Virus record (IMG/VR): IMGVR_UViG_3300009703_000023
Location: 1-54,963 of that record
Length of the DNA: 54,963 bases
Origin: a virus
Direction: 5' to 3' (one strand)
Numbering within the stretch: position 1 is the stretch's first letter; each line of letters begins with the position of its first letter. Made by a program: the position numbers and the translations under genes. The notes below the pieces were generated by a model. That model searched no databases, had not been told where the DNA came from, and saw nothing but the letters and a program-made list of their open reading frames with translations. Of the stretch, positions 5,343-27,212 are shown one piece after another.

Positions 5343-5663
5343 CTATATGTGATTGACCCAAGCAAACCGCTTTCTATTTGCTAAGTAGCCTTCGTCTTCT
5401 TCATGGGTGTAGGCTTCTTTTTCAAATGGGATAGACAAGTAAGCGTTCTTTTCTCTTTTTGCTAAGCCTTTTATCCAGAACAGCACGTACAGAACATAGA
5501 ACGGGATTACCCATAGTTCTTGTTGCTGAGCTAAGTGTATTCTTTCGTGCGTCACCATGCCCGTATCGTCTTTAAGTTCTGGGACAATAAACGCGAAAGG
5601 CCATAGGGCTATTCCGCTTTTTCCGGCGCTAAGGATTTTGGTAAATCGTGTGTAGATGACCAT
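5343..5663 (-). CDS. Membrane-associated HExxH-type protein (106 aa)
   Basis: The protein carries an HERIH motif (residues ~39-43), followed by a hydrophobic segment (VIPFYVLYVLFWI) and a conserved-looking EKEAY stretch. The layout matches small bacterial hypothetical proteins that I recall mainly from Bacteroidetes, with HERIHLRQQ and one membrane helix. HExxH suggests zinc binding or a minimal metallopeptidase. The start codon lies 55 bases inside the upstream regulator gene. The long form is preferred because the hydrophobic N-terminus (GIALWPFAFIV) looks conserved. Whether it is catalytic is unknown. Confidence 0.6.
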   Translation of the reverse strand: MVIYTRFTKILSAGKSGIALWPFAFIVPELKDDTGMVTHERIHLAQQQELWVIPFYVLYVLFWIKGLAKREKNAYLSIPFEKEAYTHEEDEGYLANRKRFAWVNHI

Positions 5664-6025
5664 CGGTCTGTTATCTTCCTCAGTTGTCTATAGACGTTGA
5701 GTAGGTCTCCGTCTTCTGAGGGTATTTTGAACCTACTTTGTAGGTTGCGTACAGCTGTATGGAGCTGCTCTGTATTTACGCATTTCCCATTTAGCAGCGT
5801 TCTTATAGAAGGGTCTATGTGCTCTGGTGGCACGCCGAAGAAATTAGCTAGCTTCAGCACTGCCAAGGGATTCAATTCGGTTATGTTGTTTAGGTACTGC
5901 GAAAACGCGCCTTGCGTCCACCCTAGCTTTTTTGCGGCCTGCAGCTGAGTAGTGCCGTCTTGCTTTTTTTCTTCCCAAAGGCGACGTAGATTTTCTGTCG
6001 GCTTACTGGTTTTCTCGTTCGTCAT
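5609..6025 (-). CDS. XRE/Cro-CI-type transcriptional regulator (138 aa)
   Basis: A helix-turn-helix of the HTH_3 type occupies residues ~25-75 (TQLQAAKKLGWTQGAFSQYL, then LAVLKLANFFGVPPEHI). The C-terminal ~60 residues do not show the Ser/Lys dyad of LexA/CI (S24) repressors, so autocleavage is unlikely. The start overlaps the upstream nuclease stop (ATGA). As the only clear DNA-binding regulator in the window, it is the best candidate to bind the seven ATTAGYNNNGCTAAT palindromes, but that link is inference. No integrase accompanies it. Confidence 0.8.
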   Translation of the reverse strand: MTNEKTSKPTENLRRLWEEKKQDGTTQLQAAKKLGWTQGAFSQYLNNITELNPLAVLKLANFFGVPPEHIDPSIRTLLNGKCVNTEQLHTAVRNLQSRFKIPSEDGDLLNVYRQLRKITDRWSSTHDLPKSLAPEKAE

Positions 6026-11625: not shown

Positions 11626-14139
11626 TTACACAGTCGATATAAGACGTTGGTCGTCGTGCGTGAAGTAAGTATCTATTAGATGGGTCTGCTCGTTAGGTGT
11701 CAGTTGCCAGTCAACTACTACGCCTCGTATCGGATTGGCATCACGCCCTGCATTAAACGGTCGTTTACGTTCTGGGGATAAACCGTTTCTGCTCATCCGT
11801 TTAGTGAAGTCTTTGATTGAGTATCTTGGATTTTGCTCTGTCTGCACGTGATACACAGTTCTTAAATGCTCCATTGGAATAACTGCGTAATCGTTAGCTT
11901 GATCAGCAATCCACGCTTTTACTATGCGCTGCGCTGTATCTATGTCGCCGCTGTTGAGTACAGTAGTTGTATTAATGTCGAGAATGTCAGTGAAGAATGT
12001 GAGGTTGCCTACTTTGACGGCTTCACTAAATTCCTCAAAGACGGACATTGATACTGAGCGCATAACTCGTTTGGCAGAGTTATCCACAGGTGTAGTAGCC
12101 AGACGTCTGTCTACATTGAAGGCGGCGAGTACACCTGCTAAATGCCACAGCTCTTTTTCAATTTGATTCGAATCGATCTTGTCTGATATGTCGTCGAAGG
12201 TATCAAGCAGTTTGTTCTCTTGAGAAGGCGCTATGTTGTAGCGGCGATCTCCTGGTTCAATGCTTACTGCATCGGCGCGGTTAGTTAGAAAGATGAAGTT
12301 TGTATAGTTCGGTATCTCAAGCTGGTTTGACCGCATGGCTCGAATCGTAATAGTACGTTCTGTGATCTGAGTCTTTAGCTGGTCAGCCATCTTTCGTATG
12401 CCAGCTGATGCGCTAGCCATATGAAACTCATCTACTACAAGAAATAGTGCGTCTCGCATATACAGATTGAACTGTTCTTCCATATTACGTAGGTATCTCA
12501 TGGGCGCATGATGCAGTCCAAACAGTCCTCGTAGTATGCGGGTGTAGAAAATACCTTTACCTGTTCCTTGGACACCCGACAGAACCCAAGCTACACCTGT
12601 CTTCTGACGGTTTTGATATATGAAAGCTAGCCAGTTGATGAACCTTTCAAACTCTTCGTCACCGTTACCGAGCATGTGGTACATGATCTGGTAGCACAGC
12701 GGCGTCAGTTCTTTCAGGTACTTGGCGCTGCCAAACTCAATGTCTACAGATGGTTCTGTAGGATTAAGGGCGTACTTAGTCTTCCTGAAAGTGTTTATGT
12801 AGTAGGGGATCTTCTTTAGGTTAACTGCGGGGTCATCGCTTGCTGGGTCAAAAACCACGCGGCCATCGGGTATGAACTCAGGTAGCACTTTCCCGTGACT
12901 GTTGAGGAACCCTTCAACGTTCTGTTTGGTAATCGGTGTCAGAGGAAATTCATCTGAGAATTGATCAGTGTTCGGGTCAAACATTCCTGCATATATTGTG
13001 TCTGTATCGAAATCTCGCATGACCATTGCTGTTTCAGCCTTGCCGATTTCTTTGAGCTTTTCTTGGAACGTTTCTGGAATCGCAGCAAAGAACTCTGCGT
13101 CGGCTTTTTCGATTTCAAATATCGGTTCTCCTTTGAAGTTGAACATGTAGATGGGATTGTCTGCGTAGAAATAGTAAGCGCCTGAATCACCACCGTTCAC
13201 GTTGCAACGTACAAAGGGAAAGTTCCCGGTATCTACAAAAGATATGGACATCTTGTCTGGGTTGGTGAGTATCTCTACGGGTTCATTACCCAGCGAGGTC
13301 ATTTTGAGTTTGCTGTTTTTCTTTTTGAATCCGCGTTCTTCTCTTAAGCGGTCTTTGGCTTCTTGTCCTTTTTCAAAAGTCTTTTGCGGAGACAAGTTAC
13401 CAATCAGTTGACCTAGATCGAAAGTAGCGCGCTCTCGTTTTATAAGAACAATGCGCTCGTCGTCATCTTCAAAAGGATTTTGATTTGGATCGGAAAAGGT
13501 AGGGGGTGCTATGAAGATTATCTTTGAGTTGTCTGCGACAGATATGTCGAGAGGGTAGGTTAGCGACTGTCCGTTTACGCTTAGGTCCATCTGCTCGGAG
13601 AAGGTGTCCGACTCAAAGTTAGCGTCTTGAAGCCAGAGCTTTATGCTTTTAGGTGGCATGGGCACTTCCAGCAGCATAAAGATGTGCAAGGAAATGGCAT
13701 CTCCTTTTAAGCCTAGGCTAGATGAAGCTTGGGCTATGTAGGAAACGTCGTGCAGCTCTACTGGTAACTCATTCAGCACCTGCCTAGCCAGGAAGCTGAC
13801 GTCGTCTTTTTTGAGCTTGCGACTATAGTCGAGAGGTTTTGGCAGACGAACGCCATCTATGTCTAATACTAGAAGTGAGGAAAGAGTGGTCTTTCCTATG
13901 TGGCCTGCACGGCTTTCTTCTACTAGGGCTTTTTTCAAGTTGCCTTTTAACAGGCAATGGCCTTTAGCTCCGTAGGTTTGGATAAGTTGCTCAAGATCTT
14001 CTAATCCCGCTTGGTCGAGCGTTATATCTTCTTCGTGGGAATTTACAGCCTTGACTAAAGGGTAGGGCGTTACTGATTTTCCTGTATAGGATTTGGACAG
14101 AGGCAAACCATTAGTTGCCTCTAAGAAATGTAGCTTCAA
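11626..14139 (-). CDS. Primase-helicase, SF3/DUF5906-type (837 aa)
   Basis: The C-terminal half is a virus-type (superfamily 3 / D5-like) helicase. Walker A is SGVQGTGKG near residue 521, and Walker B is LVVDEF near 566, followed by FIFLTNRADA, a sensor-like strand. The N-terminal ~250 residues have an acidic LLVLDIDGV strand and ISLHIFMLLEV, compatible with a primase-polymerase domain. This is probably the replicative primase-helicase loading at the origin. The start is TTG at 14139, preceded by an AGGAG site. It sits just downstream of csrA and DNA polymerase in one leftward unit. Confidence 0.8.
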   Translation of the reverse strand: MKLHFLEATNGLPLSKSYTGKSVTPYPLVKAVNSHEEDITLDQAGLEDLEQLIQTYGAKGHCLLKGNLKKALVEESRAGHIGKTTLSSLLVLDIDGVRLPKPLDYSRKLKKDDVSFLARQVLNELPVELHDVSYIAQASSSLGLKGDAISLHIFMLLEVPMPPKSIKLWLQDANFESDTFSEQMDLSVNGQSLTYPLDISVADNSKIIFIAPPTFSDPNQNPFEDDDERIVLIKRERATFDLGQLIGNLSPQKTFEKGQEAKDRLREERGFKKKNSKLKMTSLGNEPVEILTNPDKMSISFVDTGNFPFVRCNVNGGDSGAYYFYADNPIYMFNFKGEPIFEIEKADAEFFAAIPETFQEKLKEIGKAETAMVMRDFDTDTIYAGMFDPNTDQFSDEFPLTPITKQNVEGFLNSHGKVLPEFIPDGRVVFDPASDDPAVNLKKIPYYINTFRKTKYALNPTEPSVDIEFGSAKYLKELTPLCYQIMYHMLGNGDEEFERFINWLAFIYQNRQKTGVAWVLSGVQGTGKGIFYTRILRGLFGLHHAPMRYLRNMEEQFNLYMRDALFLVVDEFHMASASAGIRKMADQLKTQITERTITIRAMRSNQLEIPNYTNFIFLTNRADAVSIEPGDRRYNIAPSQENKLLDTFDDISDKIDSNQIEKELWHLAGVLAAFNVDRRLATTPVDNSAKRVMRSVSMSVFEEFSEAVKVGNLTFFTDILDINTTTVLNSGDIDTAQRIVKAWIADQANDYAVIPMEHLRTVYHVQTEQNPRYSIKDFTKRMSRNGLSPERKRPFNAGRDANPIRGVVVDWQLTPNEQTHLIDTYFTHDDQRLISTV

Positions 14140-22716: not shown

Positions 22717-23487
22717 TTAGGCGTTTGCGTACTCAGGAAGCTCGTCGTTAAACGGAACTTCAACGTCGTCTGAATCTACAACGTGTGCGCGCTTCTCAGC
22801 TGTGCGCTGCTTACGCATACGTGCGATCTTGGCTTTGATGTCGTCAACTGCGTTTTCCTCTGCGAGCTGCATTGCAATCTCGTTAAGGGCGTCGAGCGTC
22901 TCAGGCCATGTGACAGTCTCGTGGGTGGTTTCCCACTTGGTCTTGGTGCCGCGTATAACCGGGTTAGCGACACTGTTATCGGGTACGTTGACTGGGCTTT
23001 GCTGACGGAACATCGCAAGCGTCTCATCAGAGTTGATAGTCTCGCCAAGCACTGTGTGAACCAGAGACATGGAGAGGAAATCATCTAGGATGCAGTCGCT
23101 GATGCTCTGCAAGCCCATAACGGGTACACCGATCTCGGCAGCGATCTCTTCCAGACGGGTTGTGCCGATGGGGCGGTCCCAGTCACCTTCTGCTTCCTCT
23201 TCCTGCACTGCGTTGTAGAGACGGCGCGCATTCCAGCAAGCTTTGTTCATCGTATCCTGCATTGCGCTAAGGGCGGTGAGAGGGTGATACGGGGTGGGAG
23301 TCTCGACACAAGTGACGAAAATGTCCTCGTAGCACTCAAGGAGGCTGTCTTCGGTGATGGGGTTGTTGCTGTAGCCGTTGTGGACTTCAGCGTTGATGCT
23401 GCCCTTTTTGCCTTTGTACTGTGCAGCTCCGAAAAGTGCGGCTGGCAGGAAGGAAGCGTTTGCTACGTTGGTGGTTTCAGTGGTCAT
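22717..23487 (-). CDS. Abundant-type early hypothetical protein (256 aa)
   Basis: The start at 23487 was chosen because GAGGA precedes it; the frame is open a further 30 codons upstream, but that part coincides with another small gene. Soluble, acidic, mostly helical; the middle contains LYNAVQEEEAEGDWDRPIGT and the end a basic patch (KIARMRKQRTAEKRA). The strong terminator immediately behind it suggests a highly expressed unit. No family or motif recognised. Confidence 0.6.
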   Translation of the reverse strand: MTTETTNVANASFLPAALFGAAQYKGKKGSINAEVHNGYSNNPITEDSLLECYEDIFVTCVETPTPYHPLTALSAMQDTMNKACWNARRLYNAVQEEEAEGDWDRPIGTTRLEEIAAEIGVPVMGLQSISDCILDDFLSMSLVHTVLGETINSDETLAMFRQQSPVNVPDNSVANPVIRGTKTKWETTHETVTWPETLDALNEIAMQLAEENAVDDIKAKIARMRKQRTAEKRAHVVDSDDVEVPFNDELPEYANA

Positions 23488-23650
23488 TGGTGTATTCCTC
23501 GTTAACTTCGATTGTGTAAACCACATCTGAAAGGGATGCGGCGTTGTTGATGAGAGATGAATCGTCATAAGACTCAATCTCGTGGTGATAGTCAGATGCC
23601 AAATGCCAGTTTTCAGCTACTAGTTGGACAGGCATCACTGGATGTCGCAT
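23477..23650 (-). CDS. Hidden small gene (57 aa)
   Basis: ATG at 23650 follows an AGGAG site, and the frame runs 57 codons to a TGA that overlaps the next gene's start by 11 bases. The product begins MRHPVMPVQLVAENWHLASD and is acidic, with Ser/Asp-rich stretches. The ribosome binding site, terminal overlap and ordinary composition support a real gene coupled to the 256-aa protein. Function unknown. Confidence 0.5.
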   Translation of the reverse strand: MRHPVMPVQLVAENWHLASDYHHEIESYDDSSLINNAASLSDVVYTIEVNEEYTNDH

Positions 23651-24714: not shown

Positions 24715-25122
24715 TTAGTGGAAGGCGCAGGGTTCGTCTGCCAAGTAGTGGTCACCGCACACTTCGCAGTAGACGGTGTCCTCCTCTTCTTCGTGGATTC
24801 GGTCATCGCGCTTGACGAGCAAGGACTTAGCGAACTGCGTCTGCTTCATGAGTTTCAGCAGGAAATCGAGTCGCTTCTTGCCGAGGCCGTCTGCGACTGG
24901 CAGATCAACGATGAGCTTGGCGGAGTGAACATCGCCGTATGGGTCAAGACCTGCAACGGGTACATGCACCTCTTTTCCTTTGTAGGAGGTGGTGATAGCG
25001 CCGAGCTGGGGGTCGAGCTGTAGCTCCTTGCAGCGCTGCACATCCACGGTGTTGATGACAGCGATTGAATCTCGTTTGATGTTCGTCATGGGGTTTACCC
25101 TCTTAAGAGCGTTATTACTCAT
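24715..25122 (-). CDS. First leftward gene: protein with Cys-rich tail (135 aa)
   Basis: The C-terminus has CEVC and a later Cys/His pair (CAFH), a likely zinc knuckle after an acidic EEEED patch. The central part (EVHVPVAGLDPYGDVHSAKL) is beta-rich. The ATG at 25122 lies inside the 49-bp leader repeat with GGAG in front. A second ATG 11 codons later also has a GAGG site, so either could be used. It is the gene closest to the control region and probably the earliest leftward product. No family recognised. Confidence 0.55.
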   Translation of the reverse strand: MSNNALKRVNPMTNIKRDSIAVINTVDVQRCKELQLDPQLGAITTSYKGKEVHVPVAGLDPYGDVHSAKLIVDLPVADGLGKKRLDFLLKLMKQTQFAKSLLVKRDDRIHEEEEDTVYCEVCGDHYLADEPCAFH

Positions 25123-25155
25123 AAAACACTCCGACCGGGCCGAGGAACGAGTGTC
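25107..25155 (-). repeat. 49-bp leader repeat, copy B
   Basis: Near-copy of 23670-23718 (40/49). Here the start-like end (ATGAGTAATAACGCTC) is the real beginning of the 135-aa gene, so the element spans its ribosome binding site and first codons. Confidence 0.55.
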
Positions 25156-25207
25156 CGCTGCCTATGTGTTAGTGGTCACTTACCCGGAGAGGCACTAATG
25201 TGTGTCG

Positions 25208-25303
25208 TGTGTGCCAGGTGTGTGCCACGTTGTGTGCCACCTGCGGTTGGCAGAAATGCTAGCGCATTCAACTGCTTAGGAAGATGTGTGTCGTGTGTGT
25301 CAC
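25208..25303 (+). repeat. Decamer array, left arm (TGTGTGCCAC type)
   Basis: Copies at 25208-25216, 25219-25228 and 25231-25240, spaced 11-12 bp (about one helical turn). Two related TGTGTGTC copies lie at 25285-25293 and 25294-25303. All are in the same orientation. Confidence 0.7.
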
Positions 25304-25377
25304 CTTTTTTATGTTTTCAGTTCAAATTCAAAAGATAAATCTAGTTAGTTGTATATGTGTAGCAGAGGAGAGAACTG

Positions 25378-25494
25378 GTGGCACACATGACACACATCGC
25401 CAGTTTTCATAAGAAAGTTGTTATGTATCAAGGGTCTAGCGCCAGGCGTCTAACGACACACAAGGCGGCACACAGGTGGCACACATGGCACACA
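25378..25494 (-). repeat. Decamer array, right arm (GTGGCACACA type)
   Basis: The same decamer in inverted orientation, at 25378-25387, 25387-25396, ~25454-25462, ~25466-25473, 25476-25485 and 25485-25494. The AT-rich 25304-25377 interval lies between the two arms. Confidence 0.7.
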
Positions 25495-25925
25495 CCGGGG
25501 AGGGCGTGGCACTAGCCAAGTGACAGAGGATTACTTACGTATCTCGGTGCGAGTGGGGATATGGTGTCTGTCTATGTCGATTGGCTATAGCGGTTGACAG
25601 TTGTTATGCGCTGGCTCTCGTTGCTACCTGCCATATGTCCCCCGCCCATAGACAGAGGCCAGATCCACACGACCTATAACGAAGAGGTGCTGCGCTGTGC
25701 ATCTCGTTTGTTTACGTTAGTAGGCACTAACCTCCAGCAGCTGTTGCTTTTTTAAGCCAAGGGGGTTACTGAGAGACAAGGTTCCAGAAATAGAAGTCAA
25801 AACAAGGTTCCAATTCGAAAAATCGGGAGACGGGACTGCTCTGACTGCGGAAAGGGAGAGAATGTCTGAGCGATTCAGACGTAATTTTGAAATTTTTTTT
25901 CTGGAAATTTTGCCAAAGACGTTAT

Positions 25926-25940
25926 ATTAGTAGGGCTAAT
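25926..25940 (+). promoter_or_regulatory. ATTAG palindrome, operator candidate (site 3)
   Basis: ATTAGTAGGGCTAAT lies 20 bases before the ATG of the HNH gene. A TAATTA -10-like box is present, but no good -35 at 17 bp. Confidence 0.6.
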
Positions 25941-25960
25941 TACTGTTAGATGTGGAGGCG

Positions 25961-26413
25961 ATGAAGACATGTTCGCTCTGCAGGGAGGAACAAGACGATT
26001 CGCAATTTGAGAACAAACGTAAGGTTTGTAGCAGCTGTCGCCGTAGACAGACCCAATTGCGAGAGTCAAAAACACCCGACGCTTACTTCAAAAAACTAGT
26101 AACTCAGCTCCGATACCAACGCGGTAGAGATAATATCGAGTTCAACCTGACAGCTGACGACTGTTCTAAGCTATGGCACAAGCAAAAAGGCAGATGCGCT
26201 GTGTCAGGTGTCGTAATGACACATCACAGAGACGGTTCTGGCCATAAAGAGTTTAATGCCAGCATAGATCGGATAAGCCCCGACCAGTCATACACCCCTT
26301 CAAACGTCCAACTGGTTGCGTATCGTGTGAATATAATGAGGCACATATTGCCACTTGATCAGTTTCATTGGTGGGTGCAGAACATCTGGGAGCATAAGAA
26401 CTCCGGTATTTGA
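25961..26413 (+). CDS. HNH endonuclease with N-terminal zinc knuckle (150 aa)
   Basis: Residues ~4-26 hold two CxxC pairs (CSLC, CSSC). The HNH core has CAVSGV, ASIDRISPDQSYTPSNVQLV and a final VNIMRH (His/Asn ligands). The start at 25961 follows GGAGG; a GTG three codons earlier is less likely. It is the first rightward gene, two genes before terminase. HNH proteins in this position commonly aid terminase cleavage at packaging sites. It could equally be a free-standing homing enzyme. Confidence 0.8.
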   Translation: MKTCSLCREEQDDSQFENKRKVCSSCRRRQTQLRESKTPDAYFKKLVTQLRYQRGRDNIEFNLTADDCSKLWHKQKGRCAVSGVVMTHHRDGSGHKEFNASIDRISPDQSYTPSNVQLVAYRVNIMRHILPLDQFHWWVQNIWEHKNSGI

Positions 26414-26423
26414 CAAATCACAG

Positions 26424-26452
26424 TTGTTTATAGCAATTAGTGCGGCTAATAT
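26424..26452 (+). promoter_or_regulatory. Promoter with embedded ATTAG palindrome (site 4)
   Basis: TTGTTT (26424-26429), a 17-bp spacer, TAATAT (26447-26452), with ATTAGTGCGGCTAAT at 26436-26450 overlapping the spacer and -10. A TTGACA also lies at 26410. The expected start of transcription falls at or next to the ATG of the next gene. Confidence 0.7.
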
Positions 26453-26458
26453 CCGAAA

Positions 26459-26731
26459 ATGGCCATCCAAGTTTTGCTTTTGGACGGATTCGACACAGCA
26501 ATCATAGGCACCGGGTTAAACGCCGGTGGCTTGGAGTGCGTTGTGTATGACGGTTATAAAGTGCAAAACATACTTCGGGAGCTAGAATACCCAGGTAGTC
26601 TGGAAGAATTTTTAGCTGAGCTAGAGACTTTGTCTCCTTCACCGCCCGAGCTTAATACCCCGCTATTTGTGTTTATTGATGAACGAGTTGTCGATGAAGT
26701 CACAGCCGGAAGAGCTGGCCGCATCCACTGA
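26459..26731 (+). CDS. Small hypothetical protein, probably leaderless (90 aa)
   Basis: Begins MAIQVLLLDGFDTAIIG; the middle has VVYDGYKVQNIL and an acidic helix (SLEEFLAELETL). There is no Shine-Dalgarno: the ATG lies 6-7 bases after a good -10 box, exactly where transcription should begin, so the mRNA may be leaderless. It overlaps the terminase small subunit gene by 38 bases. Similar short proteins stand ahead of terminase genes in other phages, role unknown. Confidence 0.55.
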   Translation: MAIQVLLLDGFDTAIIGTGLNAGGLECVVYDGYKVQNILRELEYPGSLEEFLAELETLSPSPPELNTPLFVFIDERVVDEVTAGRAGRIH

Positions 26732-27212
26732 TCTAGTGGATCCGCACACAGAGTTTCAATCCCATCTACCTTATATGGGGTTGCAGCTAAATGAGCTGAC
26801 CGTCCAACAAGAGAAGCTGGTTCTTTTAATAGCCAGTGGAATGACCACTGCAGCAGCAGGCCGGGGCGCAGGGTATGCGTCTTCGAAGACTGCATTGGAA
26901 GCGTCGAAAAAGCCAGCCGTGCAGAAAGCATTGTCTTACTACCGCGAGCAGATGCGGGAGGAAGTGAATTTCAAGCGTGAGCACGCACACATGATGTACA
27001 TGGAAGCATATACGTCATCTGTTAATGCCACTGAGATGAAGAACACAGTTGATTCACTAGTGAAGCTGCACGGGCTGGGTATGCCTGATAATGCTACACA
27101 AGTGAATATAAACGTGAATACCTCCGCTAAGCAGCTGGAACGGTTGAGTGACGAAGAGCTGTTGGAGATAGCCGGTAAGAATGTGGATTATCTGGAGCCT
27201 GACGACAGTTGA
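26694..27212 (+). CDS. Terminase small subunit (172 aa)
   Basis: An N-terminal helix-turn-helix-like region (VLLIASGMTTAAAGRGAGYA) is followed by a long helical oligomerisation part. The ending INVNTSAKQLERLSDEELLE is typical of TerS-type proteins. It recognises packaging DNA and loads the large subunit. Start 26694 (ATG) was chosen over upstream TTG/ATG options; the ribosome binding site is poor, so translation is probably coupled to the preceding gene. Its TGA overlaps the TTG start of terL. Confidence 0.75.
   Translation: MKSQPEELAASTDLVDPHTEFQSHLPYMGLQLNELTVQQEKLVLLIASGMTTAAAGRGAGYASSKTALEASKKPAVQKALSYYREQMREEVNFKREHAHMMYMEAYTSSVNATEMKNTVDSLVKLHGLGMPDNATQVNINVNTSAKQLERLSDEELLEIAGKNVDYLEPDDS

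Follow-up and report, generated by a model that had tools for sequence, protein, structure and literature searches.

A candidate iteron-type replication origin in a family of marine phages, with a repeat unit that covaries with the phage primase-helicase

Introduction

The described systems closest to the locus reported here are the SaPI origins, which lie directly downstream of rep (PMC7581432), the alpha protein of P4, a single polypeptide that combines winged-helix binding of the origin repeats with unwinding and priming (PMC4234260), and the primase-polymerase of phage NrS-1, for which one 8-nt recognition site per strand, near the genome centre, has been proposed as the origin (PMC7102993). 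That an initiator and its origin can change together is documented for Vibrio cholerae, where, in the arms race between PLE (RepA/ori) and ICP1 (Odn), the DNA-binding domain of the initiator covaries with the origin repeats (PMC8263062, PMC8844924).

The locus considered here lies in a virus record of 54,963 bp, the whole of which was analysed and is referred to below as the window. A sequence-only reading had proposed that a set of inverted repeats between its two gene blocks is a candidate replication origin, and an origin remains the best-supported reading of the array.

Results

The gene map of the window divides into a leftward early module, encoding a SNF2-type helicase, a DUF5906 primase-helicase, a family A DNA polymerase, a MoxR ATPase and DUF2201, and a rightward module that begins with an EndoVII/HNH-like ORF, followed by the small and large terminase subunits, TerS and TerL. 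Between the modules is a gene-free interval (25123-25951), bounded by a leftward ORF at 24715-25122 and a rightward ORF at 25952-26413. It is here that the octamer TGTGTGYC occurs exactly twelve times (25199-25494), six copies in each orientation, with no further copy anywhere in the 55 kb. Dinucleotide shuffles yielded about three scattered matches and never more than two per 300 bp, as against the twelve of the array.

The units are ordered 4-2-core-2-4. On the + strand, a left outer arm of four (25199..25238; starts at 25199, 25208, 25219 and 25231) is followed by a left inner pair (25285..25301; starts at 25285 and 25294, 9 bp apart) that is also conserved among relatives; on the - strand, a right inner pair with the same 9-bp step (25380..25396; starts at 25380 and 25389) precedes a right outer arm of four (25455..25494; starts at 25455, 25467, 25478 and 25487). 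The arms form imperfect inverted repeats (38 nt at 84%, 22 nt at 91%). The core between them, a candidate unwinding element assigned to no strand (25302..25379), has 31% GC over 25307-25380 versus ~55% in the surroundings, and an imperfect IHF-like site, TATCAAGGGTCTA, can be read in the right spacer (25426..25438, + strand). The inverted arrays around an AT-rich core that had been claimed are thus borne out, as is the count of six for the right arm; the left arm, credited with at least five copies from 25208, has six and begins 9 bp earlier, and the local spacing given as 9-12 bp stands, refined to 9, 11 or 12 bp inside the groups. GC skew, which had been put forward as a check, lends no support, since it has no extremum at the array over the window. 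A DNA search of the array region against phage records returned no match.

The array is not peculiar to this genome. A TerL search collected 80 contigs, many of which, among those reaching far enough upstream, carry it, and a gene-independent scan for the pattern alone gave 30 stretches with an array, nearly all of them with a homologous TerS or TerL alongside where the contig extends enough. The layout is observed to recur across related marine phages, in dozens of contigs, at 1-2.4 kb upstream of their terminase genes. Among these relatives the start-to-start gap across the core is mostly near 85, 96 or 108 bp; these classes lie roughly one helical turn apart, which suggests, by inference from the spacing, that helical phase across the core is preserved. 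The exact IHF-like WATCAANNNNTTR falls inside 25 of 34 arrays tested, where 0.8 would be expected, and is absent in the window, which has the imperfect site only. Many relatives have, ~1-1.7 kb to the left of the array, a homologue of the ORF at window positions 22717-23577, which evolves fast (22-31% identity) and has no known domain.

What does vary is the repeated word. Relatives without TGTGTGYC have ~11-13 copies of another unit in the same place and layout, and about a dozen such units were found, with geometry and spacers staying constant: TGTGTACC, GGTGAGAC, TGTGAGAC, TGTGTAGCAG, TGTGTGACG, TGTGTGCAG, TGTCACAG, TGTTGCAGG, TGTTCCA, TGGTTCCA and others. The presence of the repeats in relatives with the same replication genes had been named as a check; the array is indeed kept alongside those genes, while the unit itself differs. 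Its placement exactly where the gene blocks diverge, also claimed earlier, holds for the window and fails as a general rule, a leftward ORF lying just right of the array in several relatives. One contig among the 30 stretches, L163, has a mirror-image TGTGTGCC array (150-430), though no homologues of window genes at E 1e-5; read by eye, this array lies upstream of an apparent terminase gene of the contig's own, and the initiator is not on the contig. No clear array was found in phiA008, whose primase is 27.6% identical. In the isolated Pseudomonas phage KPP25, the primase-helicase of which is 32.5% identical to that of the window, twelve TGTYACG units occupy 26394-26824 within a 677-bp gap without annotated genes, and the inner pairs flank an AT-rich core. 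The KPP25 array is far from the terminase genes, and the array therefore follows the primase and not the terminase neighbourhood.

The switch of unit is seen most cleanly in two contigs, L069 and L073, whose DNA is 97% identical over 5.5 kb and whose TerS proteins are identical, and which nevertheless carry different words, TGTGTGCC in L069 and GGTGAGAC in L073. Base differences reach 40% in the units, 21% in the spacers and 5% in the flanks (Fisher P 0.0007). Concerted switching of the units requires that a reader protein changed as well; because TerS is identical despite the different units, TerS (26667..27212 in the window, + strand) cannot be that reader, and we have rejected it as such. 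Neither contig has a complete primase gene, so this pair is uninformative on the primase. Near MoxR, both encode a small HTH protein (L069 288-704, L073 4049-4462) that is 66% identical between them, with its neighbours at 96-99%.

One reading, which we regard as unlikely, makes the array an operator, bound by a phage repressor that controls divergent promoters. In the window the array does sit at the divergence, and the HTH protein near MoxR, with its low identity between L069 and L073, could track the unit too. That family, however, occurs in six distinct loci only and is missing from the window, and a protein present in so few genomes was set aside as the reader. The HTH_3 protein at 5609-6025, which is found in most relatives, has a recognition helix that does not track the unit, and it too is rejected. 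No sigma70-like promoter was found in 24900-26100, and the position at the divergence is not shared by relatives.

A packaging site (cos or pac), with TerS bound to the repeats in the manner of gpNu1 at the R sites of lambda cosB and IHF in between, is decidedly improbable. The array always stands upstream of TerS/TerL in the window's phage family, its spacers contain IHF-like sites, and several contigs end or break inside it. The identity of TerS in L069 and L073 tells against this, as does KPP25, where the array is 4.4 kb from TerL and across the divergence. Moreover, a nearly invariant element beside TerS fits packaging better: a pair of ACAAGGTTCC copies 26 bp apart (25776..25811 in the window, at 25776 and 25802, + strand), which 50 of the 55 loci with enough sequence have upstream of TerS, whichever iteron word they use. 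An AT-rich stretch after the pair (window 25776-25906 with it) is likewise conserved in most relatives. We infer from this conservation that the pair is separate from the origin and the likelier candidate for the packaging site. As for the contig breaks, the two ends of contig G002 (L127/L128; 55,380 bp) overlap within the origin core, differ there in poly-T length and lack exact terminal repeats, so that the ends clustering in the array resemble assembly breaks and are not taken for physical genome ends of the lambda cos type. The overlap implies a self-closing map of about 55.2 kb. Symmetric arms with IHF sites characterise attP and short tandem repeats parC, and the array resembles both, but an attP-like recombination site or a partition centromere is scarcely credible: the scan of window proteins, which did not cover every ORF, recognised neither an integrase nor ParA or ParM.

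We return, then, to a replication origin, for which the proposed initiator is the primase-helicase (11626..14139, - strand), whose gene has the array 11 kb upstream of it. The protein comprises an AEP-like N-terminal part, in which D93, D95 and H152 are invariant, a DUF5906/SF3-type helicase and, in AlphaFold models, a predicted C-terminal winged-helix domain (residues 752-812; 11704..11886, - strand); no TOPRIM match was found in it. Foldseek matches the helicase part to the SaPI5 primase-helicase (7ola/7pds), while for the C-terminal domain alone it found no significant PDB relative (best E 0.16; the weak matches are mostly winged helices). In 27 genomes whose unit is known and whose primase-helicase is full-length, we scanned this protein without bias in 10-residue steps, deriving the identity expected for each step from the remainder of the sequence. 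Genome pairs that share a unit give a sole clear peak, at residues 797-806 (AGRDANPIRG; 11722..11751, - strand), where identity is 0.75 observed versus 0.41 expected. The peak has a z of 2.34 (all segments: mean 0.12, s.d. 0.53), and its value was not reached in any of 200 label shuffles, with the proviso that the shuffles are not phylogeny-aware and the independent lineages few. The same test on TerS, TerL and HNH produces lower peaks. In a first, noisier test, a partial correlation against graded unit distance, 797-806 was only one of several peaks, and others as high stood in TerL and at other places in the primase.

On the predicted structure, residues 797-806 form the wing of the winged helix. 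Genomes with TGTGTGYC share the wing AxRD[AS][NH][PA][IV]RG, though their primases are only ~50% identical between clades; those with GTGAGAC have QIRG in common, and those with TGTGTGNNG have lost the R. Within one clade, TGTTCCA, TGTGTACCA and TGGTTCCA genomes have DKNAS/NKNDS-IPRG, DRTAS-APRG and DRTAG-IPRG wings, respectively. In a tree of residues 1-680, TGTGTGCC appears in three separate clades, all of which have a wing of the AxRD type. The sister of L117 (TGTGTGACG) is L210 (TGTGTAGCAG), whose unit is found again in L109. The sequence-only reading had stated that no gene product was obviously matched to the repeat; the C-terminal domain of the primase-helicase is the matching product that it overlooked, and the early zinc-ribbon protein that it offered as a possible binder is without support.

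Beyond the phages, the array pattern has one strong bacterial match, a Cellvibrionales MAG contig (L288; CAJXVK010000041.1, 10486-13240) in which a tmRNA gene, a tyrosine integrase, an AlpA-like gene, a phage-type origin and the ACAAGGTTCC pair follow one another. The origin copy (440 bp) is 94% identical to the L069 origin, with 11 units intact and one mutated. A search of the 8 kb around it found none of the window proteins and no primase; no attachment-site repeat of the tmRNA 3' end was found either, and the right boundary of the element remains unlocated. A second Cellvibrionales genome (L293 4134-7199; G298:C1 about 410-413 kb) has the ACAAGGTTCC pair with a Terminase_2-type TerS-like gene and its own RepB/DUF5906 primase-helicase, has no iteron array, and shares sequence with L288 to the right of the pair. 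The bacterial scans gave no other strong array match, and a sample of ~750 more gammaproteobacterial genomes did not contain the pair. Origin function predicts just such elements, equipped either with an initiator of their own (L293) or with the origin of a helper (L288). The L288 element is apparently an origin-capturing minimal satellite, to judge from its gene content, with the caveat that the MAG binning could be wrong.

Discussion

We think it likely that the array is an iteron-type replication origin of the phage, loaded by the phage's own primase-helicase, although neither binding nor initiation has been shown. The conserved layout, the concerted switching of units and the way in which the unit varies in step with residues 797-806 are matters of observation. 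Their best reading, from sequence comparison, would be a bidirectional origin with AEP primase/SF3 helicase loading, similar to SaPI Rep and P4 alpha. The C-terminal winged helix would bind each octamer, and the six oppositely oriented units per side could let two helicase hexamers assemble face to face over the AT-rich core; binding, and with it the allotment of one unit to each subunit, is inferred only. The core would then be melted and bidirectional replication begin, with priming by the primase-helicase itself, and host IHF may bend the spacers; melting, bidirectionality and the role of IHF are likewise inferences. Counting against an origin are the lack of replication or binding data, the missing GC-skew extremum and a covariation that comes from few lineages.

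More tentatively, and without claiming that the balance yet favours it, we suggest that satellites steal the phage origin and are replicated by the primase-helicase of the infecting phage, and that such parasites favour a joint switch of the twelve iterons and the wing. If this is true, parasite pressure would produce one origin-and-reader type after another. Origins and readers come in this family as naturally occurring pairs at near-constant geometry, a series in which a change of initiator specificity without loss of function, with some twelve sites changing together, becomes directly testable. It also provides a sequence signature by which origins can be located in uncultured marine phages of a widespread group. 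The variable wing of the DUF5906 primase-helicase gains a likely function, and attention is drawn to satellites that may replicate through carrying their helper's origin.

With SaPI Rep/ori and SCCmec Cch2, the window's system would have in common a self-loading initiator helicase and a C-terminal domain reading short iterons (the winged helix being predicted and its binding inferred here), and the SaPI-type arrangement of short iteron sets around an AT-rich region is present. The SaPI ori lies directly downstream of rep, whereas the window's array is 11 kb from the gene and fails to meet this criterion; also unlike SaPI, the candidate origin sits in a large genome, that of a phage, has IHF-like sites and keeps its inverted geometry fixed. 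P4 alpha exemplifies the single-protein scheme that we propose for the window primase-helicase. P4 has a second iteron site, crr, whereas the window has no such second array, all 12 units lying in one cluster. Alpha is a TOPRIM primase (PMC4234260); the window protein has AEP-type motifs and no TOPRIM match. The window's system would work like those of SaPI and P4, yet it is not counted as a member, with its gene 11 kb away, its primase non-TOPRIM and binding inferred only.

The NrS-1 primase-polymerase is the closest solved relative of the window's helicase part. NrS-1 has two sites as against twelve, its tail domain has been described as a novel fold, unlike the winged helix predicted here, and the window phage additionally encodes a family A DNA polymerase. 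A lambda-type cosB, with repeats read by TerS, does not describe the array, the units of which differ where TerS is identical. The nearest parallel to the joint change of initiator and origin is PLE, where the two covary as in the window's phage family. There, the initiator belongs to the RepA_N family and reads ~30-bp iterons, whereas here a primase-helicase is paired with octamers; and while in PLE it is the origin of the satellite that diversifies, in the window's family it is the origin of the phage.
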